From Cupriavidus sp. U2 (GTDB lineage Bacteria; Pseudomonadota; Gammaproteobacteria; Burkholderiales; Burkholderiaceae): a DNA stretch of 64,000 bases. Within the stretch, counting starts at the first letter, position 1. Each line of letters opens with the position of its first letter. Below are positions 19,297-33,397 of this stretch, piece by piece. The translations under genes and the position numbers were made by a program. The notes beneath the pieces were generated by a model. That model was given only the letters and a program-made list of their open reading frames with translations. It was not told the DNA's origin and did no database searches. The DNA lies in the NCBI RefSeq assembly GCF_009663685.2, contig NZ_RCOG02000026.1, positions 1 to 64,000 of the forward strand. The letters run 5' to 3'.

Positions 19297-22044
19297 TCAG
19301 GCTGCTGCCGCGATCCGGATCTCCGCCAGCAGCTTGCGCAGTTCCGGCACGCAAGACCCGCAGTTGCCGCCGGCCTTCACGCAGGCGGTGATGTCGGCCG
19401 GCGTCTTGAGGTCGTGCTTGCGCACGGCGTCGCAGATCGTATTGCGGCCCACGCCGAAGCAGGCGCACACCGTGGGGCCGGCGTCGGCGGTCTTTTCCAT
19501 CGGCTGGCCCAGCAGCAGGCCGATACGATCGGGATCTTCCAGCCGATCCTGCCCGAACAGTTGCGAAAGCCAGGCGCGCGACGGCAGATCGGCCCGCGTG
19601 GACACGTAGACGCACGCTTCCAGCCGGTCGTTGACCACGAACCCCGCGTGATAGACCCCGGCCGAGCGGTCTTCGTATTCAAGCCAGTCCGCGTCGGGAT
19701 CGTGCACGCCCAGCAGGGCCCGCGCCCAGGCGGCGCGGTCAGCGACGGTTTCCCGGCCGGCGAATTCGTAACGCTGAAACTGCTTGCCCTGGATGCGCGT
19801 CCAGTAGGTCAGCGAATCGGCCGGCAGCGCGTTGCGGCTCAGCACGAAGCCGTGCCACGAGACTCGGAATTCCTCCACGCGCACCGGCGTGTGCTTGAAC
19901 TCGGGCTCGCCCGAGACCGGATCGACTACCGGATTGACCACGGCGCCCACGCGCGCATCGGAGCTGAACTGATCGTTCCAGTGAATCGGCACGAACACGC
20001 TGCCCCGCGCAATGCCGCCGCCAAACCGCACCCGGGCCACCATGGCGCCCCAGCGGCTGGTCACGCGGGCGAGCTTGCCTTCGCCCACGCCGCATAGCAG
20101 CGCGTCCTGCGGATGCATGTCGACGAACGGCTCGGGCAGGTGGTCGGACAGCCGCGCTGCCTTGCCGGTGCGCGTCATGGTGTGCCACTGGTCGCGCACG
20201 CGGCCCGTGTTCAGGATCAGCGGAAATTCGTCGTCGGCCGCGTGGGCCGGCGCGCGGGCCGCGGTCGGCACGAAACGGGCGCGGCCATCGGCAAAGGCAT
20301 AGCGGCCATCCTCGAACAGGCGCTGGGTACCACCCGGCGTGGCGGCGCGGTACGGCCATTGCACCGGCGCGAAGGCGTCGTATTGGTCCTGGCTCAGCCC
20401 GACCAGACCGCCGATATCAAACATGCGCGGCGCGTCGCGGTCGCTGGCATCGCCGTTTCGCCAGGCCGAGAGCCGCGCGTGTTCGTCGAAGATCTCGTGC
20501 GGGGTCTGGTAGTCGAAGCCGGCGAAACCCATGCGGCGGGCCACGTCGCACAGGATGTCCCAGTCGGCGCGGGCCTCGCCGGGGGCCGGCAGGAAGGCGC
20601 GCTGGCGCGAGATGCGGCGCTCGGAGTTGGTGACCGTGCCGTCCTTCTCGCCCCAGCCCAGCGCGGGCAGCAGCACGTGCGCGGCATCATTGGTATCGGT
20701 GTGCGTGACGATGTCTGACGACACCACCAGTTCGCACCTGGCCAGCGCACGGCGTGCCTGGTCGGCGTCGGGCAGGCTGACCACCGGGTTGGTGGCGATG
20801 ACCCACACGGCCTTGACCTGGCCGGCCTCGATGGCGTTGAACAGGTCCACGGCCTTGAGGCCGGGCTTGTCGGCCATGCGCGGCGACTGCCAGAAGTCCT
20901 GCACGATGTCGCGATGCACCGGGTTGGCCAGTTCCATGTGCGCGGCCAGCATGTTGGCCAGCCCGCCCACTTCGCGGCCGCCCATGGCATTGGGCTGCCC
21001 GGTCAGCGAGAACGGACCCATGCCCGGACGGCCGATGCGGCCGGTCAGCAGATGGCAGTTGATGATGCTGTTGACCTTGTCGGTGCCGGCCGACGACTGG
21101 TTCACGCCCATCGAGAACGCCGTGATGACCTTTTGCGTACCGGCGAACAGTTCGAAGAACGCCCGCAGGTCCTGCGGATCGAGCTTGCAGGCACGGGCGA
21201 GGGCGGTCAGGTCCCCGGCATCGGAGCCGTCGGCATCGGCCACGGCCAGTGCGTCGTCCAGGCCGGCCGTGTGCGCATCGACAAAGGCCGCATCGGTGTG
21301 GCCGTGGCGCGCCAGGTAGCCGAGCAGGCCGTTGAACAGCCGTACGTCGGTGCCGGGGCGCAGCGGCAGGTGCAGGTCGGCCAGTTCGCAGGTGGCGGTG
21401 CGGCGCGGATCGATGGCCACGATCTTCATGTCGGGCCGTGCTTCCTTGGCGCGCGTCAGGCGCTGGAACAGGATCGGATGGCACCAGACCGTGTTCGAGC
21501 CCACCAGCACCACCAGATCGGCCTGTTCCAGGTCTTCGTAGCTGCACGGCACCAGGTCTTCGCCAAACGCGCGCTTGTGGCCGGCCACGGCCGACGACAT
21601 GCACAGCCGCGAGTTGGTGTCGATGTTGGCCGAGCCGATAAAGCCCTTCATCAGCTTGTTGGCGACGTAGTAGTCCTCGGTCAGGATCTGGCCCGACACG
21701 TACAGGGCCACGGCGTCGGGGCCGTGCCTGGCGATGACGTCGGCAAAGCCGCTGGCCACCTTGTCGAGCGCCTGGTCCCAGCTCACGCGATGCAGCGATC
21801 CGTCGGCATCGCGCAGTTGGGGATGGAGCAGGCGGCCGTCCAGGCTGACCGTGTCGCCCAGCGCCGAGCCCTTGACGCACAGGCGGCCATGGTTCGACGC
21901 GTGGTCGGCATCGCCTTGCACTTCCACCTGGCCGTCGGCGCGCGCGGTGGCGCGCACGCCGCAGCCCACGCCGCAGTACGGGCAGGTGGTGGAGACCGTC
22001 TTGGTCGAGGTGGTGGCAACCACGGCAATATCGGACAGGTTCAC
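19297..22044 (-). CDS. nasA: Assimilatory nitrate reductase, catalytic subunit
   Basis: Reduces nitrate to nitrite in the cytoplasm. The 915-residue protein has an N-terminal [4Fe-4S] motif CPYCGVGCG at about residues 21-29, the molybdopterin dinucleotide-binding core (NTGRVRDQWHTMTRTGKAA), and a C-terminal BFD-like [2Fe-2S] domain with CACFGVG and GGNCGSC. The extra domain is typical of NasA, which receives electrons from an NAD(P)H flavoprotein. The start is a GTG (VNLSDIAV) at 22044. An ATG further upstream lies inside the preceding gene and is unlikely. It is last in the nitrate operon, 46 bases after the flavoprotein gene. Confidence 0.93.
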   Translation of the reverse strand: MNLSDIAVVATTSTKTVSTTCPYCGVGCGVRATARADGQVEVQGDADHASNHGRLCVKGSALGDTVSLDGRLLHPQLRDADGSLHRVSWDQALDKVASGFADVIARHGPDAVALYVSGQILTEDYYVANKLMKGFIGSANIDTNSRLCMSSAVAGHKRAFGEDLVPCSYEDLEQADLVVLVGSNTVWCHPILFQRLTRAKEARPDMKIVAIDPRRTATCELADLHLPLRPGTDVRLFNGLLGYLARHGHTDAAFVDAHTAGLDDALAVADADGSDAGDLTALARACKLDPQDLRAFFELFAGTQKVITAFSMGVNQSSAGTDKVNSIINCHLLTGRIGRPGMGPFSLTGQPNAMGGREVGGLANMLAAHMELANPVHRDIVQDFWQSPRMADKPGLKAVDLFNAIEAGQVKAVWVIATNPVVSLPDADQARRALARCELVVSSDIVTHTDTNDAAHVLLPALGWGEKDGTVTNSERRISRQRAFLPAPGEARADWDILCDVARRMGFAGFDYQTPHEIFDEHARLSAWRNGDASDRDAPRMFDIGGLVGLSQDQYDAFAPVQWPYRAATPGGTQRLFEDGRYAFADGRARFVPTAARAPAHAADDEFPLILNTGRVRDQWHTMTRTGKAARLSDHLPEPFVDMHPQDALLCGVGEGKLARVTSRWGAMVARVRFGGGIARGSVFVPIHWNDQFSSDARVGAVVNPVVDPVSGEPEFKHTPVRVEEFRVSWHGFVLSRNALPADSLTYWTRIQGKQFQRYEFAGRETVADRAAWARALLGVHDPDADWLEYEDRSAGVYHAGFVVNDRLEACVYVSTRADLPSRAWLSQLFGQDRLEDPDRIGLLLGQPMEKTADAGPTVCACFGVGRNTICDAVRKHDLKTPADITACVKAGGNCGSCVPELRKLLAEIRIAAAA

Positions 22045-22090
22045 GGCAGAATCTCTTCGGTCGGTGGCGGCGCGGGCCGGGGAGCTTGGG

Positions 22091-23350
22091 TCAGGCCGCC
22101 AGGGCCTCGCATTGCGCCTGGCCAAACAGCAGGCGCTGACGCAGCGCGGCCACGGGCTTGCCGGACTGGATCAGGTCGAAATACCACGGGCCATCCTTCA
22201 CGTCGCCATACAGCACGGCGCCGACCAGCCGGCCGTCCTGCAGGACCAGGCGCTTGTAGATACCGCGGCGCGGATCGCGCAGGACGAGGTCCTCGCTGCC
22301 TTCGGCGCCGATGAAATCGCCGGCCGAGTACAGGTCCACACCCGTCACCTTGAGCTTGGTGGCCGTGGCCTGCTGCACGTAGCGCCGATGCCCGGCGCCA
22401 GCCAGATGCGCGGCGCAGACGCGGGCCTGGTCCCAGATCGGGGCCACCAGGCCAAACGTGGCGTTGCGGTGTTGCACGCATTCACCCACGGCGTAGATGC
22501 GTGGATCGAAGGTCTGCAGCGTGTCGTCCACCACGATGGCGCGCTCGCAACGCAGGCCGGCGCCGGCGGCCAGCTCGATATTGGGGCGCACGCCGGCGGT
22601 CATCACCACCAGGTCGGCCGGAATCCGCGTGCCGTCCTTGAACAGGACGCCGGCCACGCGGTCCTGGCCAAGAATGCCGGCCGTCTGGGCGCTCAGCAGA
22701 AAACGCAGGCCCTTGCGTTCGAGCGCCAGCTTCAGCAGGTCGGCGGCGGGTTTGTCCAGCTGGCGCTCCATCAGGCTGTCGGCCAGATGCACCACGGTGA
22801 CATCCATGCCTTGCCGCATGAGGCCATTGGCGGCCTCCAGACCCAGCAGGCCGCCGCCGATCACGACCGCGTGGCGATGGTTGCGCGCGGCGTGCAGCAT
22901 GGTTTCCACGTCCTGGATGTCGCGGAAGGCGATCACGCCGTCCAGCGTATGACCGGGTACCGGAATGATGAACGGCCTGGAGCCCGTGGCCAGCAGCAGG
23001 CGGTCGTAGTGGACTGCCTTGCCGGAAGCCGAGCGCACGGTGCGGCGCGGCCGGTCGATGGCCACCACGGGGTCACCGGCCAGCAGTTCGATGCCGTTCT
23101 GCGCGTACCAGTCGCGCGTGTTGAGCATGATGTCGTCGACGGTCTTTTCGCCGGCGAGCACCGGGCTCAGCAGGATGCGGTTGTAGTTGCCGTGCGGCTC
23201 GGCGCCGAACACCGTGATGTCGTACAGGTCCGGCGCGAGCTTCAGCAGTTCCTCGACCGTGCGCATGGCGGCCATGCCGTTGCCAACCACCACCAGCCGT
23301 GGCTTGGCCGGGGTGGCGGGAGACGAGGCGGGGGGCGTCGTGGGCATCAT
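22091..23350 (-). CDS. FAD/NAD(P)H oxidoreductase of nitrate assimilation
   Basis: The 419-residue flavoprotein has an N-terminal FAD Rossmann motif (LVVVGNGMAAMR), an NAD(P) motif at about residues 150-165 (AVVIGGGLLGLEAA) and the conserved VVMTAGVRPN and IYAVGEC. It resembles the NAD(P)H-oxidising front half of NirB and the NasB-type electron donors. Placement between nirD and nasA suggests it passes electrons from NAD(P)H to the NasA iron-sulphur domains. Two ATGs stand in a row (23350, 23347). The gene is separated from nirD by 106 bases containing six copies of an 8-base repeat. Confidence 0.87.
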   Translation of the reverse strand: MMPTTPPASSPATPAKPRLVVVGNGMAAMRTVEELLKLAPDLYDITVFGAEPHGNYNRILLSPVLAGEKTVDDIMLNTRDWYAQNGIELLAGDPVVAIDRPRRTVRSASGKAVHYDRLLLATGSRPFIIPVPGHTLDGVIAFRDIQDVETMLHAARNHRHAVVIGGGLLGLEAANGLMRQGMDVTVVHLADSLMERQLDKPAADLLKLALERKGLRFLLSAQTAGILGQDRVAGVLFKDGTRIPADLVVMTAGVRPNIELAAGAGLRCERAIVVDDTLQTFDPRIYAVGECVQHRNATFGLVAPIWDQARVCAAHLAGAGHRRYVQQATATKLKVTGVDLYSAGDFIGAEGSEDLVLRDPRRGIYKRLVLQDGRLVGAVLYGDVKDGPWYFDLIQSGKPVAALRQRLLFGQAQCEALAA

Positions 23351-23367
23351 CTTCTGGGGGCCTGTTT

Positions 23368-23415
23368 GCGTAATGGCGTAATGGCGTAATGGCGTAATGG
23401 CGTAATGGCGTAATG
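23368..23415. repeat. Six tandem copies of an 8-bp unit upstream of the flavoprotein gene
   Basis: GCGTAATG repeats six times perfectly from 23368 to 23415, starting about 18 bases before the ATG of the flavoprotein gene on the minus strand. The unit is not a multiple of three, and the array is non-coding. It sits where copy number changes could alter translation initiation or readthrough from nirD. Confidence 0.85.
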
Positions 23416-23456: not shown

Positions 23457-23855
23457 TCAGGCGGCCATTTCTTCCTCGACCTTGCCTGCCTGGGCTTCGC
23501 GCTGGACGACCGAGGCCGCCACCCAGACCTTGCCGTCATAGACGCGCGCGGCGTGGGCGTGGACCGAGTGCTCGGGCGCCTCCAGGCACTCGCCGGTGCG
23601 CAGGTCGAAGTGGTGCTTGTAGATTGGCGACGCCACCACCACGCGCTCGCCGAGGCTGCCGACCAGCCCGCGCGACAGCACGTTGGCCTGCGAATTCGGG
23701 TCGAAATTGGCGATGGCGTAGACCTCTTCGCCGCGGCCGACGCGGAAGACCGCCACCTGCTGCCCGTCGACCAGTGCGCAGACACCAGTATTGGGCACGA
23801 TATCGCGCAAGGTGCAAATCGCGGTCCAGGTTTCGGGATGGTGGGTTTGGCTCAT
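23457..23855 (-). CDS. nirD: Nitrite reductase [NAD(P)H] small subunit
   Basis: The 132-residue Rieske-like protein that partners NirB for reduction of nitrite to ammonia. ICTLRDIVPNTGVCALV, VYAIANFDPNSQANVLSRGLVG and VASPIYKHHFDLRTGECLE are family hallmarks. It keeps the Rieske fold but lacks a full Cys-His cluster set, as usual for NirD. The ATG at 23855 is preferred over the GTG at 23858 because AAGGAG stands six bases upstream. It lies 15 bases after nirB. Confidence 0.92.
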   Translation of the reverse strand: MSQTHHPETWTAICTLRDIVPNTGVCALVDGQQVAVFRVGRGEEVYAIANFDPNSQANVLSRGLVGSLGERVVVASPIYKHHFDLRTGECLEAPEHSVHAHAARVYDGKVWVAASVVQREAQAGKVEEEMAA

Positions 23856-23870
23856 CACGTTCTCCTTGTG

Positions 23871-26432
23871 TCAGGCTGCTTTTGCGGGCACGGCGACCAC
23901 GGGAATGTGGCTCAGGCGGGAACGCTGCAAGTTCCGTTCCTCCGGCGTGGCAGGGCGGATCTGGCCGCGCGCTTCCATGAAGACCAGGTTGTCGTCGCGC
24001 AGGTCGCTGTTGACGAAGTGGCGGAATCGCTTGCGGGTTTCCGGGTCGGTGATGGCCTTTTTCCATTCGTCCTCGTAGGTGTCCACCACGTGCTGCATTT
24101 CGGCTTCCAGTTCGGCGCCGATGCCCAGCTTGTCGTCGATGACCACGGCCTTCAGGTAGTCCAGGCCGCCTTCGAGGTTGTCGCGCCAGGTGCTGGTGCG
24201 TTGCAGGCGGTCGGCGGTGCGCACGTAGAACATCAGGAAGCGGTCGACGTAGCGGATCAGCGTGTCGCGGTCCAGGTCGCCGGCCAGCAGTTCGGCGTGG
24301 CGCGGCTTCATGCCGCCGTTGCCGCAGACGTAGAGGTTCCAGCCCTTTTCGGTGGCGATGATGCCTACGTCCTTGCCCTGGGCTTCGGCGCACTCGCGGG
24401 TGCAGCCCGACACGCCAAACTTGATCTTGTGCGGCGCGCGCAGGCCCTTGTAGCGGTTTTCGATGTCGATGGCCAGGCCAACCGAGTCGTCAACGCCGTA
24501 GCGGCACCACGTGGAGCCCACGCACGACTTGACGGTGCGCAGCGACTTGCCGTAGGCGTGGCCGGATTCGAACCCGGCCGCCACCAGTTCTTCCCAGATC
24601 AGCGGCAGTTCTTCCAGGCGGGCGCCGAACATGTCCACCCGCGCGCCGCCGGTGATCTTGGTGTACAGGCCGTACTTCTTGGCCACCTGGCCCACGGCGA
24701 TCAGGCCGTCGGGCGTGACTTCGCCGCCGGGCATGCGCGGCACCACGGAGTACGTGCCGTCCTTCTGGATATTGGCCAGGAAGTAGTCGTTCGAATCCTG
24801 CAGGCTGGCATGTTCTTCCTTGAGCACGAATTCGTTCCAGCACGATGCCAGGATGCTGCCCACCGTAGGCTTGCAGATGTCGCAGCCCAGCCCCTTGCCA
24901 TGCGCGGCCAGCAGGTCATCGAAGGTCTTGATCTTGCCCACGCGCACCAGGTGGTACAGCTCCTGGCGCGAGTACGGGAAGTGCTCGCAGACATGGTTGT
25001 TCACGGCCATGCCCTGCTTTTTCATTTCGGCCTTCATGATCTGCGTGACCAGCGGCACGCAGCCGCCGCAGGCCGTGCCGGCCTTGGTGCACGACTTCAG
25101 CGCGCCGATGCTGGTGGCGCCATCGGTCACGGCCGCGCAGATCTGGCCCTTGCTGACGTTGTTGCACGAGCAGATCTGGGCCGTGTCGGGCAGCGCGTCG
25201 GCGCCCAGTGCCGGCCGGGCCTGTCCATCCGACGACGGGAGGATCAGGAACTCCGGCGATTCGGGCAGCTCGATGCGGTTCAGCATCATCTGCAGCAGCG
25301 TGCCGTATTCGGCGGCATCGCCCACCAGCACGCCACCGAGCAGGTACTTGCCGCAATCGGACACCACGAGCTTCTTGTAGACCTGCTTGCGCTCGTCGGT
25401 GAACTGGTACGAGCGGCTGCCCGGCGCATTGCCGTGCGGGTCGCCGATGCTGGCTACGTCCACGCCCATCAGCTTGAGCTTGGTGCTCATGTCGGCGCCG
25501 GTGAACCGGGCGGCCTCGCCCCGCAGATGGCGGGCGGCCACACGGGCCATATCGTAGCCCGGGGCCACCAGGCCGTAGATCTTGCCGTCCCACAGCGCGC
25601 ATTCGCCGATGGCGTAGATGTCCGGGTGCGAGGTCAGGCAGTTGTCGTCGATCACGATGCCGCCGCGCGGGCCAATGGCCAGGCCGCTGTCGCGGGCCAG
25701 TTCGTCGCGCGGACGAATACCGGCCGAGAACACGATCATGTCGGTGTCCAGATGCGTACCATCGGTGAAGTTCATGCGGTGCGTGCCGTCCACGCCATCG
25801 ACGATCTCCACGGTGTTCTTGCCCGTGTGCGCCTTCACGCCGAGGTCTTCGATCTTCTGGCGCAGCATGCGGCCGCCGCCGTCGTCGACCTGTACGGCCA
25901 TCAGGCGCGGGGCGAACTCCACCACGTGGGTGTCCAGGTTCATGTCGCGCAGCGCCTTGGCGCACTCCAGGCCCAGCAGGCCGCCGCCGATGACCACGCC
26001 CGACCTGGCGCGGCGGCCGCATTCCAGCATGGCCTCCAGGTCTTCGATGGTGCGGTAGACGAAGGTGTCCTTGCGGTCCTTGCCCGGCAGCGGCGGCACG
26101 AACGGGTACGAGCCGGTGGCCAGCACCAGCTTGTCGTAGGGCAGCGTCTCCCCGGTAGACGTGGTGACCGTCTTCGCGGCCGTATCGATGGCCGTGGCCC
26201 TGGCATTCAGACGCAGCAGCATGTTGTTGTGCTGGTCGAAGAAGCCCGCCGGCACCAGCGACAAGTCATCGGCCGACTTGCCGGCGAAGAATTCCGACAG
26301 GTGGACGCGATCGTAGGCGGGGCGCGGCTCCTCGCAGAGCACCGTCACTTCCAGGTCTTGTGCGCCGGCCTCTGCCAGGCATTCCAGGAATTTGTGGCCG
26401 ACCATGCCGTGCCCGACGATGATGATCTTCAT
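23871..26432 (-). CDS. nirB: Nitrite reductase [NAD(P)H] large subunit
   Basis: Cytoplasmic sirohaem enzyme reducing nitrite to ammonium, 853 residues. FAD site IIIVGHGMVGHKFLE at the N-terminus, NAD site VVIGGGLLGLECAKAL, BFD-like [2Fe-2S] motifs CSCNNVS and GTACGGC at about residues 420-460, and the sulphite/nitrite reductase half. That half ends with the [4Fe-4S]/sirohaem ligands in CVGSTWC and GVSGCTREC, then YVCGNGG. All cofactor motifs are present. It follows narK by 49 bases and precedes nirD. Confidence 0.95.
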   Translation of the reverse strand: MKIIIVGHGMVGHKFLECLAEAGAQDLEVTVLCEEPRPAYDRVHLSEFFAGKSADDLSLVPAGFFDQHNNMLLRLNARATAIDTAAKTVTTSTGETLPYDKLVLATGSYPFVPPLPGKDRKDTFVYRTIEDLEAMLECGRRARSGVVIGGGLLGLECAKALRDMNLDTHVVEFAPRLMAVQVDDGGGRMLRQKIEDLGVKAHTGKNTVEIVDGVDGTHRMNFTDGTHLDTDMIVFSAGIRPRDELARDSGLAIGPRGGIVIDDNCLTSHPDIYAIGECALWDGKIYGLVAPGYDMARVAARHLRGEAARFTGADMSTKLKLMGVDVASIGDPHGNAPGSRSYQFTDERKQVYKKLVVSDCGKYLLGGVLVGDAAEYGTLLQMMLNRIELPESPEFLILPSSDGQARPALGADALPDTAQICSCNNVSKGQICAAVTDGATSIGALKSCTKAGTACGGCVPLVTQIMKAEMKKQGMAVNNHVCEHFPYSRQELYHLVRVGKIKTFDDLLAAHGKGLGCDICKPTVGSILASCWNEFVLKEEHASLQDSNDYFLANIQKDGTYSVVPRMPGGEVTPDGLIAVGQVAKKYGLYTKITGGARVDMFGARLEELPLIWEELVAAGFESGHAYGKSLRTVKSCVGSTWCRYGVDDSVGLAIDIENRYKGLRAPHKIKFGVSGCTRECAEAQGKDVGIIATEKGWNLYVCGNGGMKPRHAELLAGDLDRDTLIRYVDRFLMFYVRTADRLQRTSTWRDNLEGGLDYLKAVVIDDKLGIGAELEAEMQHVVDTYEDEWKKAITDPETRKRFRHFVNSDLRDDNLVFMEARGQIRPATPEERNLQRSRLSHIPVVAVPAKAA

Positions 26433-26481: not shown

Positions 26482-27795
26482 TCAGTTGGCCAGCGCGCTG
26501 TCGTACAGGGCTTGCTCCTGCGCCTTGTGCTCGGCGCTGAAGCGCACGGCGATGGCGCACAGCGCGGCCAGCGTGGCGGTCACGCCCAGGTACGTCAGCG
26601 TCTGCTGCAGGTCGCCCAGGCCTTTCATCAGGAAGCCCGCGGCCACCGCGCCGACGTTGCCGCCAGCGCCGATGATCCCGGCCACGCCGCCCAGCGCCTT
26701 GCGGTCGATGAACGGCACCAGCGCGTAGGTGGCGCCGCAGGCCATGTGCGTGAACAGGCCGAACGTCAGCATGGCGGCGACGGCAGTGACCACGCCCGCG
26801 GCATGCGCAAACGCCAGCAGGCCCAGGCCTTCGCCCAGAATGAAGACGAACAGCACGATCGACCGCGCGTCGAGGCCACGGCGACGGGCCACGCGATCCG
26901 AAACGTAGCCGCCCAATGCCCGGGCGAACAGGGCCAGCAGGCCGAAGCTGGCTGCGGCCATGCCGGCGGCGGACAGCGACAGGCCGAAGTGGTCGACGTA
27001 GTAGGTGGCCGCCACGTTGTGGATGAAAATTTCCACGCCGAAGCATGCGCCGTACGTGATGAACAGCAGCCAGACGCGGTAGTTGGCGCTGGCCGCGCGG
27101 AAGCTGGCCCAGCCGCCACCGCCCTTGCCGCCGCTCACGGCGATGCCGCGGGCGCGCAGGTCCGAGAAGTTGCCTTCGGGGCAGTCCTGCGTGAAGCGCC
27201 AGTAGACAACGGCCATGATCAGCATCAGCACGCCCGGCACGATCAGCGCCACGCGCCAGCCCATGGCGTGGTCCACGCCCAGGAACAGCACGGCGGCCAG
27301 CAGCAGCGGCATCGCGCCCTGTGCGGCGCCGCCGCCCGCGTTGCCCCAGCCGGCCGACGCCGCATTGGCGGTGCCGACCACGTTCGGCGCGAACATCACC
27401 GACGTGTGGTACTGCGTGATGACAAAGCTCGCGCCCACCGCCCCGATCAGCAGGCGAAAAAACAGGAAGGTCTCGTAGTTCTGGGCAAACGCCACGCCGA
27501 TCACCGGAATCGCACCGATGGCCAGCAGGCCGGTGTACGTCTTGCGCGGGCCGAAGCGGTCGCACATCGGGCCGATCACCAGGCGTACCAGGATGGTCAC
27601 GGCCACGGCGGCGATATTGATATTGGCAATCTGGCCGGGGGTCAGGCCAAATTCGCCCTTGAGCACCGGCATCAGCGGCGCGCAGGCAAACCACGCGAAG
27701 AAACAGACGAAGAACGCCATCCAGGTCAGGTGGAAGGCGCGCATCTGCGGGGTCTTCAGACTTAGCAGATCGATCCGGGTGGCTTTGCCGTTCAT
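26482..27795 (-). CDS. narK: NarK-type nitrate/nitrite transporter
   Basis: A major facilitator of 437 residues with 12 predicted helices. The nitrate signature motifs are present as FVITQYHTSVMFAPNVVGTANAASAGWGNAGGG and, in the second half, GIIGAGGNVGAVAAGF. As the first gene of the operon with nirBD and nasA it should import nitrate for assimilation. The start at 27795 is chosen because upstream sequence folds into a terminator-like leader hairpin; the longer frame would run through that hairpin. Confidence 0.92.
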   Translation of the reverse strand: MNGKATRIDLLSLKTPQMRAFHLTWMAFFVCFFAWFACAPLMPVLKGEFGLTPGQIANINIAAVAVTILVRLVIGPMCDRFGPRKTYTGLLAIGAIPVIGVAFAQNYETFLFFRLLIGAVGASFVITQYHTSVMFAPNVVGTANAASAGWGNAGGGAAQGAMPLLLAAVLFLGVDHAMGWRVALIVPGVLMLIMAVVYWRFTQDCPEGNFSDLRARGIAVSGGKGGGGWASFRAASANYRVWLLFITYGACFGVEIFIHNVAATYYVDHFGLSLSAAGMAAASFGLLALFARALGGYVSDRVARRRGLDARSIVLFVFILGEGLGLLAFAHAAGVVTAVAAMLTFGLFTHMACGATYALVPFIDRKALGGVAGIIGAGGNVGAVAAGFLMKGLGDLQQTLTYLGVTATLAALCAIAVRFSAEHKAQEQALYDSALAN

Positions 27796-27806: not shown

Positions 27807-27894
27807 AAAAACAAAAGGCGTCCCGAGAGGCTGGCGCTGATGAGCCAGTTCTGGGGACGCCGTTGTCCTGACGGCTGCTACCTACGGATAGCAG
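27807..27894 (-). promoter_or_regulatory. Leader RNA with mutually exclusive hairpins (putative attenuator) of the nitrate operon
   Basis: Reading the minus strand: hairpin P1 CTGCTA...TAGCAG (27894-27875), hairpin P2 GCCGT, loop CAGGACA, ACGGC (27875-27859), then an intrinsic terminator whose arms GGCGTCCC (27861-27854) and GGGACGCC (27824-27817) enclose an inner CTGGC/GCCAG stem and are followed by TTTTGTTTTT. P2 shares three bases with the terminator 5' arm, so the two compete. A terminator lying between promoter and narK, with P2 before it, matches the logic of ANTAR-protein (NasR/NasT) antitermination of nitrate operons. The loops do not clearly fit the A1/G4 hexaloop consensus. Confidence 0.65.
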
Positions 27895-27946
27895 TCGTGC
27901 TGTGTGGGGTGGGCAGATCGCCGTTGACCGGCCCACGCTTCCTATC

Positions 27947-27961
27947 GCAAGCGGTGTGCCA
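27947..27961 (-). promoter_or_regulatory. Sigma-54 promoter of the nitrate operon
   Basis: On the minus strand TGGCAC, five bases, TTGC, with the GG and GC doublets at the exact -24/-12 spacing of the RpoN consensus. Transcription would begin near 27936, giving a leader of about 140 bases that holds the attenuator. NtrC-type nitrogen control is therefore expected. Confidence 0.75.
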
Positions 27962-28139
27962 GCCCCAACAAGTGTTGGTTTGGAGACTTCGAGAAGGGAA
28001 AACGCGCTGATTAGTGCCGTATGGCGCACTAATCCGCATCATGGTGCGGCGCCAGAGTTGGGCGGGCGCACGGCTATGGTGCGGTGCAATGTGCGGCGCC
28101 GGTGCGTGCGCAGGTCCGGGGGCCCGGCGGTCAGTCGGC

Positions 28140-28616
28140 CTATTCGGCCTGCGGCAGCAGGGAAATCAGCTGCATGTCGGAGGGGGAGACCAGCTGATCG
28201 GCTTCGTCGATCAGTGCGGCGCGTACCTTGAGCCCGTTGACCCGCGAGCGGATCTCCGCCGGACCCTGGCCATCCGGCTTCATATGGGCATCGCCCCACT
28301 GCATCAGGCCCACGATCACTGGCAGCAACTCCACGGCGGCACGAGTAGGGCGGTAGGCAAAGCGCTCGCGCTCGCCTGGCGCCTTGTAGCTGACCTTGCG
28401 CAGCAGGCCGGCTTCCGTCAGCGTCTTCAGCCGCGCCGACAGCACGGCGGGCGAGCACTGAAGCCGCTCCAGAAAGTCATCGAAACGTTGGACCCCCGAA
28501 AACACGTCGCGCAAGATAAGAATTGTCCACTTCTCGCCAATCAGCGACAGCGTGGCCGCGATCGAGCATTGCGCGAAGGCCTCGGGCGACACAGGAGGCG
28601 GCAGTGACGTATTCAT
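28140..28616 (-). CDS. HxlR-family winged-helix regulator
   Basis: The 158-residue protein has the HxlR core: IGEKWTILILRDVFSGVQRFDDF, SPAVLSARLKTLTEAGLL and the wing YRPTRAAVELLPVI. HxlR proteins bind as dimers and often respond to aldehydes, quinones or redox. The start MNTSLPPP at 28616 is preferred. The gene is divergent from a GNAT gene whose promoter lies in the short spacer, so it may regulate that gene and itself. Confidence 0.88.
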   Translation of the reverse strand: MNTSLPPPVSPEAFAQCSIAATLSLIGEKWTILILRDVFSGVQRFDDFLERLQCSPAVLSARLKTLTEAGLLRKVSYKAPGERERFAYRPTRAAVELLPVIVGLMQWGDAHMKPDGQGPAEIRSRVNGLKVRAALIDEADQLVSPSDMQLISLLPQAE

Positions 28617-28643
28617 GATTTGAGGATAGCACTCTAACTTCAT

Positions 28644-31172: not shown

Positions 31173-31568
31173 TCATAGCGCCAGCCTCATGCCGATGGCA
31201 CGGGCGGCCTTGCGGTCGAAGGTGGCCGTGTGATGGCAGCCGGCGCTCTGGCAGGTCCGCTGGATCAGGCAGTCGGGGAAATCGCTGGGCGTGGACTTGA
31301 AGAGCCGCAGCGCCGACTTCACAATGGCCATCGATTCGATCACGAGATCATTGCTTTCGATCAAATGTTCAATGATCTCGACAAGTTCGGGCTGGCCGGC
31401 TCCATAGCGTTTGTCCATGGTCCAGACAAGTTCTGCCAGAACGACAATTGGCACGTATCCCCGCCAGTGGTCGGACAGCGACTCGAGGACGGCATCCGCC
31501 ACCGGCGTCTGGATCGGGTCGTCGCGGGTGAAGTATCGAACGAGGATATTGGTGTCCAGGCCGATCAT
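31173..31568 (-). CDS. vapC: PIN-domain RNase toxin (VapC family)
   Basis: The 131-residue PIN nuclease has the expected acidic residues: Asp5 in MIGLDTNILVRYF, Glu in VVLAELVW, Asp in DFPDCLIQ and Asp in TATFDRKAAR. VapC toxins cut specific tRNAs or rRNA when freed from antitoxin. The start overlaps the upstream antitoxin stop by ATGA (31565-31568), so the pair is translationally coupled. Confidence 0.88.
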   Translation of the reverse strand: MIGLDTNILVRYFTRDDPIQTPVADAVLESLSDHWRGYVPIVVLAELVWTMDKRYGAGQPELVEIIEHLIESNDLVIESMAIVKSALRLFKSTPSDFPDCLIQRTCQSAGCHHTATFDRKAARAIGMRLAL

Positions 31569-32089: not shown

Positions 32090-33397
32090 TTATCGGCGGC
32101 GCAGCAATGCCAGCGGCAGGGTGCGCAGCCGTTCGAGAACCACGGATTTCATCGCCACTGGCGTCGGCAGCGAATCGAGCAGCGCGGGCCACCGTTCCTG
32201 GGCCATCGTCACGGCGTCTTTCACGGCGGCGACGGCGATGCGCTCGGCAATCCGGGCTTCGCGCGCGAAGTCCCGGTAGGTTTCCAGTGTCTGGCTGCGT
32301 TGCAGAAGATCGATGGCGACGTTCTGTCCGAAAGCCGCGAAGCCTGGCAGGGCGGCCACGCTGACGATGTCATAGGCCGGCGACAGCTCGGGCATCGTGC
32401 CATTGCGATAGAGGAACGAGAAATTCTTGAGGTGAGCGTCGCTGTTGCCCAGCAGCGTATGGACGGCTTGCCGCATGAAGAACTGCCGGACGTCTTCGAT
32501 GCCGCGTACGCTCAGTCGGTCCAGCAGCCGGACGATGGCCACGTAGGCATCGTTGCCGGCGTACTTGCGTGCCGGCATGCGCGTCAGGATCTGGCAGCCG
32601 TCTTCGGCATGGACCCGGCCGCCGGGCTCGCGATCGAAGCGGTCCACTGCCAGGAAGTGCAGGTCCGCGCCCAACGCATCGGCCAGGCCCGGCACATCGA
32701 TGGCCGCCAGCGGCTGCGGCCGGCACACGGCCACCGCCACGCCGGCTGCCTGGGCCAACTGCATCGACACATATTCGTTATAGATCTGGCTGTCGTCGTT
32801 GCGTGCCGGCAGCTTGGCGATCAGGTCGGACAGCCGCCCGTGGGTAGGCATGGTGTAGCGCCTGCCTGCGTGCGCGGTAGACAGCGCCAGCTTGTTCTGC
32901 ACGCCGGACACCGAGGCGGCACCTTCGGTCGCGCCTTCCACGACGGCGATCTCGAGGTTGTCCGCGCCGCCCGTCACCCCGATGGTGCGGACATGATCGG
33001 GCAAGGTGTCCAGATTGGCCGGGCGCACGGTCAAGGCACCGGGCAGGTCTTCGCCGGCCGCGGCCAGCACGCCGAAGTCGTCGCGATCATCGGGATGGTG
33101 ACGCGTGGCCTCCAGCCGCTTGCGCAGTTCGCCCTCGGGCAGCAGCCCGGCAAAGTAGGGGGGAAGTTCGCCGCCGACGTTGTAGACCGCAGGGTGGAAC
33201 GGATTCGACAGGATGGTGCCAGTCAACGGTTCGTTGCCGGGGATGGTCAGCGAGAGGCTGAGCGTCGGCCGGCCGGGATCGCCGCGAAATTGCTCGCCAG
33301 GCACGAAGCGCGTGGTTCGCCCGGCTTCGCAGAGGTAGCCGCAGAGTACTCCGTGCAAGTGCACCGACAGATAGCGCGGCCGGAGTTCGTCGCTCAT
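32090..33397 (-). CDS. hipA: HipA-family serine/threonine kinase toxin
   Basis: The 435-residue kinase has an N-terminal HipA_N region (residues about 8-110, LSLSLTIP, LPPYFAGLLPEGELR), the Gly-rich loop ASVSGVQNKLAL (about 162-172), and the catalytic loop GNSDAHLKNFSF with Asp320 and Asn325. The metal-binding Asp343 lies in SPAYDIVS. All kinase residues are present, so it should be active; E. coli HipA phosphorylates GltX and induces dormancy. The start overlaps the hipB stop by ATGA. Confidence 0.92.
   Translation of the reverse strand: MSDELRPRYLSVHLHGVLCGYLCEAGRTTRFVPGEQFRGDPGRPTLSLSLTIPGNEPLTGTILSNPFHPAVYNVGGELPPYFAGLLPEGELRKRLEATRHHPDDRDDFGVLAAAGEDLPGALTVRPANLDTLPDHVRTIGVTGGADNLEIAVVEGATEGAASVSGVQNKLALSTAHAGRRYTMPTHGRLSDLIAKLPARNDDSQIYNEYVSMQLAQAAGVAVAVCRPQPLAAIDVPGLADALGADLHFLAVDRFDREPGGRVHAEDGCQILTRMPARKYAGNDAYVAIVRLLDRLSVRGIEDVRQFFMRQAVHTLLGNSDAHLKNFSFLYRNGTMPELSPAYDIVSVAALPGFAAFGQNVAIDLLQRSQTLETYRDFAREARIAERIAVAAVKDAVTMAQERWPALLDSLPTPVAMKSVVLERLRTLPLALLRRR

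Follow-up and report, generated by a model that had tools for sequence, protein, structure and literature searches.

The window, by which we mean the whole 64,000-nucleotide stretch of Cupriavidus sp. U2 DNA that was analysed, carries on its minus strand an operon that opens with a narK-type MFS transporter (26482..27795, an open reading frame matching PF07690), for which we keep the name that the initial annotation took from the operon context. It is followed by nirB, encoding the nitrite reductase large subunit (23871..26432; TIGR02374, 1150 bits, over the cut-off), nirD, encoding the small subunit (23457..23858; TIGR02378, 116.6 bits, over the cut-off), a NirB-like FAD/NAD reductase (22091..23398; PF07992) and a nasA-type molybdopterin nitrate reductase (19297..22125, an open reading frame matching PF00384, PF01568 and PF04324), the last two without defined starts; the best NCBIfam matches of the nasA-type reductase score below their cut-offs. 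A gene for an HxlR-type regulator (28140-28643, minus strand, PF01638) lies directly 5' of the narK promoter region. Further away, the minus strand of the window encodes a PIN-domain protein (31173-31568, PF01850) and a HipA-like protein (32090-33397, PF07804 and PF13657), both of which are frequent members of toxin-antitoxin modules.

The TGGCAC-N5-TTGC promoter named in the initial annotation is present at 27961..27947 on the minus strand as TGGCAC-ACCGC-TTGC, a match to the sigma-54 element. In the same-genus alignment the pattern TGGCA[C/T]N5TTGC occurs in 33/33 leaders, where it also served to cut the leaders out, all 33 BLAST-matched loci having it. An exact match to GCAC-N7-GTGC, which we take to be the NtrC consensus, lies upstream at 28068..28082 (minus strand, GCACCATAGCCGTGC), and the same exact match is found in each of the 33 same-genus leaders, 98-121 nt 5' of TGGCA, compared with 4.6 of 33 leaders expected from shuffles even when one mismatch is tolerated. 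Both parts of an NtrC/sigma-54 promoter, the -24/-12 element and an NtrC-type site, are thus at hand, and the genome encodes an NtrC protein that scores over its family cut-off. Assuming the usual spacing between a sigma-54 promoter and its start, transcription of the operon is predicted to begin near 27936. The stretch that separates the NtrC-type site from the promoter holds an inverted repeat, GATTAGTGC...GCACTAATC (28009-28034); its strict pattern was found in just 1 of the 33 relatives.

The RNA between this promoter and narK folds better than all 200 of its dinucleotide shuffles (z -3.79). Its minimum-energy fold contains an upstream ANTAR hairpin, P0 (27909..27936, minus strand; GGUC-AACGGC-GAUC), absent from the initial annotation, with a loop at 27925..27920, a C-G closing pair and inner pair probabilities above 0.99, and a middle hairpin (27871..27898, minus strand) whose loop is not of the A1/G4 type. 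Next comes P2 (27855..27868, minus strand; GGAC-AACGGC-GUCC), a putative antiterminator hairpin whose A1/G4 loop and C-G closing pair are identical to those of P0. The strong terminator reported before narK is confirmed: an intrinsic stem, GGCGUCCC...GGGACGCC (27817..27861, minus strand, -27.4 kcal/mol), runs into the T-run TTTTGTTTTT (27807..27816, minus strand), and narK starts at 27795. The 3' arm of P2 is the 5' arm of the terminator, so that the two are computed to be mutually exclusive, and P2 has a probability of about 0.9 in a nascent RNA that ends at P2 and about 0 once the terminator has been synthesised. At -4.0 kcal/mol P2 is weak next to the strong terminator, so that keeping it folded would call for a protein.

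This fold retains part of the earlier picture and replaces the rest. Of the two small hairpins proposed there, the first is our middle hairpin (27898..27871) and covaries; the second, GCCGU/ACGGC, has cells that pair in 87.3% of cases, yet none of its pairs changed on both sides, and its arm overlaps P2, against which its probability in the nascent RNA is about 0.017 compared with about 0.9. The statement that only one of two structures can form applies to P2 and the terminator, and the bases shared with the terminator, which do exist, are the end of the P2 loop and the P2 3' arm. The loops had been described as deviating from the A1/G4 consensus because the wrong bases had been folded; those of P0 and P2 both fit it.

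To establish how far these elements are conserved, we compared leaders across relatives. A BLAST search with the leader matched 34 of 60, of which 33 belong to the 36 genomes of the same genus and the remaining one is a short match outside it; two short matches without P2 (G009:C52 and G058) were left out, and a narK relative lies 3' of the leader in 33/33 aligned loci. The covariation check suggested in the initial annotation bore out two stems: P0 and the middle hairpin together show 61 double-change cells against a shuffled mean of 23.3, with none of 500 shuffles as high and at most 27 when the structure is slid along the alignment. The number of pairs with a double change was 12 against 8.8 in shuffles (reached by 6 of 500), and further pair types were not above shuffles (432 of 500 as high). 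The P2 pairs are invariant across the 33 leaders, so that within the genus P2 pairing escapes the covariation test, which counts against the explanation that we favour below. The closing pair is CG in every leader for P0 as for P2. Some rows break P0 pairs, and in five an A-C mismatch stands in place of the third pair counted from the loop. These broken pairs, and the pair-type counts that do not exceed shuffles, likewise weigh against our explanation. The P0 loop itself varies in two rows, to AACGAC and AATGGC, both still A1/G4. The middle loops are variable and 3-6 nt long, and none is A1/G4, either among the 33 leaders by script or among five further narK leaders by eye.

The distance from A1 of P0 to A1 of P2 is 58-64 nt in 33/33 leaders. 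In the source genome the linker between the two hairpins measures 40 nt, or 12 nt unpaired if the middle hairpin folds. Usual ANTAR linkers are 5-12 nt in eut RNAs and 2-25 nt in a published screen; the raw linker exceeds both, and we therefore file the leader as a variant ANTAR target RNA. According to the accessible portions of the eut studies, a 14-nt linker drastically reduces induction (PMC3369931, PMC8934654) and 20 added nucleotides abolish EutV antitermination in vitro (PMC8934654), and the 40-nt linker accordingly weighs against our explanation. The linker folds with a median z of -3.7, below -1.5 in 28/28 genus leaders (the five mismatch rows being unscored). After folding, a median of 13 nucleotides stay unpaired, which is not less than the 12.3 of shuffled linkers, and a spacing role for the middle hairpin is therefore put forward as a proposal.

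The genome encodes one ANTAR protein, a NasT-like protein of 211 aa from its likely start, so that the search for NasT, NasS or NasR homologues suggested in the initial annotation yielded the first of these but no cytoplasmic NasS. It aligns with NasT-type proteins that adjoin NasS in other genera, and its receiver-like front part goes unrecognised by Pfam. This part (L045:4421-5170, minus strand, for the whole protein) reads PDLVIIASES, several other NasT proteins having an acidic residue, as in ILIDTES; judging from these residues, it may not be phosphorylated. Downstream of nasT lie, in order, an nrtA leader, nrtA, nrtB and an ATPase gene. In the own genome the best PF13379 match is the twin-arginine NrtA (356.5 bits), followed by one of 92.4 bits, where a Pseudomonas NasS scores 316.8 bits. 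With that Pseudomonas NasS as query, 38 of 40 congeners have one strong relative per genome, and four of the 38 carry a second, weak one (34% identity). An RR pattern is present in 31/31 NrtA N-termini read by script (30 plus our own, from the 38 genomes with the gene). From these scores and relatives, Cupriavidus appears to keep NasT while lacking NasS, so that NasS as the partner of NasT is not supported here. In Pseudomonas, Oxalobacteraceae and Caballeronia, reading by eye finds a signal-less NasS-like protein near nasT. Four congeners (G004, G009, G017 and G334; loci L303, L302, L306 and L323) encode a NIT-ANTAR protein of the NasR type, which in G004 and G334 is the only ANTAR match, the narK leader being nevertheless kept.

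A second NasT-type leader lies outside the window, just after nasT and before nrtA (L045:4036-4049; G000:C2:92535-92548, minus strand). It has a sigma-54 element, a terminator and three A1/G4 hexaloops, AACGAC in P0, AACGAC in the middle hairpin and AACGGC in P2, so that an ANTAR hairpin occupies the position of the middle hairpin of the narK leader. The nrtA leader could be read in 35 of the 38 congeners with the gene (our own included) and was not found in the other three; P0 is A1/G4 in 35/35 and the middle loop in 33/35, of which 31 were called by script and the other two, which have a stem mismatch, were read by eye. In the alignment of these 33 middle loops, which excludes the two leaders without one, A1, A2 and G4 are invariant while positions 3, 5 and 6 vary; the script required A1 and G4 in 31 of the 33 rows and A2 in none. 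The middle stem covaries, with 16 double-change cells against 3.8 in shuffles and 0 of 500 as high, while the number of double-change pairs (4, which 82 of 500 shuffles attain, the shuffled value being 2.7) and further pair types (222 of 500 as high) do not stand out. The two leaders without a middle loop belong to G334, whose only ANTAR protein is the NIT-type NasR, and to G009, which has NasR and another, untyped ANTAR protein; the loop is kept in G017, which has NasR together with an ANTAR gene next to the nrtA leader. Run on the own genome, a covariance model of the middle hairpin and P2 picks out the nrtA leader clearly (63.9 bits, all others at most 22.1) and matches the narK leader at P2 only (17.4 bits). 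A third exact P2 match, at C23:262585, had no P1-like hairpin, terminator or promoter that could be found and was taken as chance.

Beyond the genus, the P2 pattern matched in 83 of 300 genomes of the order, with about 58 in the reversed control, so that many of these matches must be due to chance; among congeners it is present in 39/40. Combining P2 with the promoter in named genomes gave at least 120 loci. We omitted G170 and G195, where the P2 sites lie at contig ends, and 11 of 187 leaders shorter than 50 nt. Three biases bear on the counts that follow: an exact P2 was demanded, the promoter distance used for named genomes suits three hairpins, and genomes that are related do not count independently. 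They therefore do not give the fraction of triplets among NasT leaders as a whole. Among the matches listed, 63 named leaders had a strict promoter and a terminator; two upstream A1/G4 hexaloops were found in 20, one in 34 and none in 9, compared with dinucleotide shuffles of which 95.4% had no upstream hexaloop and 0.1% had two. Under relaxed rules, 176 leaders among the matches listed divide into 57 with both loops, 81 with P0 only, 25 with the middle loop only and 13 with neither, five of the last being genus rows missed through the A-C mismatch; of the mononucleotide shuffles, 94.9% had neither loop and 0.1% had both.

By genus, and among the matches listed, both loops occur in Massilia (3/3), Pseudoduganella (3/3), Janthinobacterium (2/2), Undibacterium (1/1), Xanthomonas (1/1), Pseudomonas (19/26) and Rhodoferax (3/7), P0 only in Paraburkholderia (6/6) and in single leaders of Ralstonia, Caballeronia, Pandoraea and Cupriavidus, and the middle loop only, with the upstream loop presumably lost, in Variovorax (6/8). 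The downstream gene differs, again among the matches listed: nine Oxalobacteraceae leaders and that of Xanthomonas precede narK, those of Rhodoferax and Variovorax precede nrtA, and 5/6 Paraburkholderia and 29/30 Pseudomonas-group leaders precede nirB. All nine Oxalobacteraceae narK leaders among these matches carry the full triplet, in contrast to the presumed loop loss in the narK leaders of Cupriavidus. Of 30 Pseudomonas-group leaders among the matches listed, 24 bear an A1/G4 hexaloop on their middle hairpin (CCCG/CGGG); four of the 24 loops could close further with A-U pairs. The spacing from the middle hairpin to P2 is 1-16 nt, with a median of 5 (n=89).

We consider it very probable, from the sequence as it stands, that the narK leader is an ANTAR attenuator that responds to NasT and is transcribed under the control of NtrC and sigma-54, in a variant form whose middle loop has been lost. 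It has what characterises dual-hexaloop ANTAR targets, namely two A1/G4 hexaloops, C-G closing pairs and exclusivity of P2 and terminator, and together with the NasT-like protein and the NtrC-type site these support the ANTAR antitermination from a sigma-54 promoter that had been proposed at the outset. Under nitrogen shortage, phosphorylated NtrC would start transcription; without active NasT the RNA would stop at the terminator, so that only a leader transcript some 130 nt long would be left. When nitrate is present, NasT would bind the P0 hexaloop in a recruitment step and then hold P2 as it emerges, blocking the terminator so that narK, nirB, nirD, the reductase and nasA could be made. The leader would descend from an array of three hexaloops (P0, middle and P2) of which the middle stem was kept and its ANTAR loop lost, and P0 would have to serve P2 over 40 nt, shortened to 12 unpaired nucleotides by the folded middle hairpin.

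One could also speculate that the middle hairpin remains a binding site, either for the regulator by way of a loop with looser or altered requirements or for some other factor, and that the functional pair is the middle hairpin and P2. Its retention and covariation across 33 narK leaders, and a spacing to P2 near that usual for ANTAR RNAs, would suit this, but its loops vary between 3 and 6 nt and are A1/G4 in 0/33 whereas P0 keeps A1/G4, and in what the sources make available EutV activity is lost once A1 or G4 is mutated (PMC3369931) and NasR prefers A1/G4 and a C-G closing pair in SELEX (PMC7496416); we regard it as unlikely. Still less likely, in our judgement, is a leader with just two ANTAR hairpins, between which an unrelated hairpin happens to lie, the likeness to the nrtA triplet being coincidental or a separate gain. 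Random linkers of equal length do reach a similar unpaired length, and that the loop was lost rather than gained is a presumption. Such an origin fits poorly, however, with two upstream hexaloops in 20 of the 63 named leaders listed against 0.1% of shuffles, with the A1/G4 middle loop in 33/35 nrtA leaders, with the triplet in Oxalobacteraceae narK leaders and with the consistently negative z of linker folding (median -3.7, 28/28 below -1.5). The lowest probability falls to a terminated leader acting in trans as the main product, a P11-like small RNA with read-through secondary: the leader has a P11 match (E 0.0098, below gathering) and the P11 of P. aeruginosa has been studied as a small RNA, as the available text of PMC12080996 describes it, but position, promoter, the switch between P2 and terminator and the operon itself all suit a role in cis.

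Building on the variant ANTAR attenuator, we offer a broader proposal more tentatively, and would give it somewhat less than an even chance. In many beta- and gammaproteobacteria the ancestral NasT leader may have had three hexaloops instead of the textbook pair, P0 and the middle loop recruiting and P2 antiterminating, with individual lineages losing one recruitment loop while keeping its stem; in Cupriavidus, without NasS, the twin-arginine NrtA encoded behind nasT would be a candidate reader of nitrate before its export; and P11 (a triplet) and the narK RNA (a pair) would form one family. If so, the middle loop was lost in the narK leaders of Cupriavidus and the nirB/narK leaders of Paraburkholderia, and P0 in the nrtA leaders of Variovorax, and since either loop can be lost by lineage, recruitment could work from nearby or from about 60 nt away. 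Natural triplets, together with two leaders of one genome, nrtA with the middle loop and narK without it, allow the model of recruitment followed by transfer to be tested directly. Given that NasS, the usual nitrate sensor for NasT, is apparently absent from Cupriavidus, it has to be asked by what route nitrate acts on NasT there.

Control of nitrate leaders by ANTAR proteins with sigma-54 promoters is already known, NasT-NalA antitermination with such a promoter having been published for Pseudomonas in the part of PMC12830290 open to us. The three-hexaloop array, the lineage-specific loop losses and the narK RNA as an ANTAR leader are new as far as searches of an open library show, a scope outside which the primary NalA papers fall. 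The Rfam models for P11 (RF00625; 21.5 of 70 bits gathering, E 0.0098) and for the narK RNA (RF03032; 25.1 of 43.2 bits, at the promoter and P0 region) both match our leader below threshold, and we count both matches in favour of an ANTAR attenuator. The Rfam consensus for the narK RNA has one hairpin only. Of ten loci scanned with Rfam, two from Pseudomonas, L157 and L174, were alone in giving matches over gathering, P11 on the leader type described here and the narK RNA on a second leader (L157:3146-3215, which follows nasS-nasT, and L174:485-556). By eye, from sequence and fold, the latter contains a P1 hairpin with AACGGC and a P2, CGAC-AAAGAC-GUCG, inside the terminator, so that the Rfam narK RNA reads as a two-hexaloop ANTAR leader, which suggests a mechanism for it. 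The same comparison would place the Pseudomonas P11-type leaders among three-hexaloop ANTAR leaders, at Pseudomonas loci other than P. aeruginosa P11, the C. elegans avoidance small RNA.

Among the known systems closest to the Cupriavidus leader is the NalA/P11 system of Pseudomonas nirBD, which, as far as the accessible sections of PMC12830290 describe it, shares the sigma-54 promoter, the hexaloop hairpins, a nitrite reductase operon and NasT, and also has a P2, GGACAAAGGCGUCC, that overlaps the terminator; the Cupriavidus leader differs in having narK first, a middle hairpin without A1/G4 and a genome apparently without NasS. Its likeness to the dual-hexaloop RNAs of EutV and NasR lies in the A1/G4 loops, the C-G closing pair and a second hairpin that overlaps the terminator, from which it is set apart by a long linker enclosing a third hairpin. 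In the excerpts available of PMC8934654, the EutV model requires two closely spaced hexaloops, the protein being recruited at one hairpin and passed on from there to the antitermination hairpin, and the extra single hexaloop described in EutX is the nearest precedent for a third loop that we found. The Kosakonia nasF-type leader, with one hexaloop hairpin 5' of P2, agrees with the published nasF motif of two hairpins, as given in the accessible text of PMC7496416.
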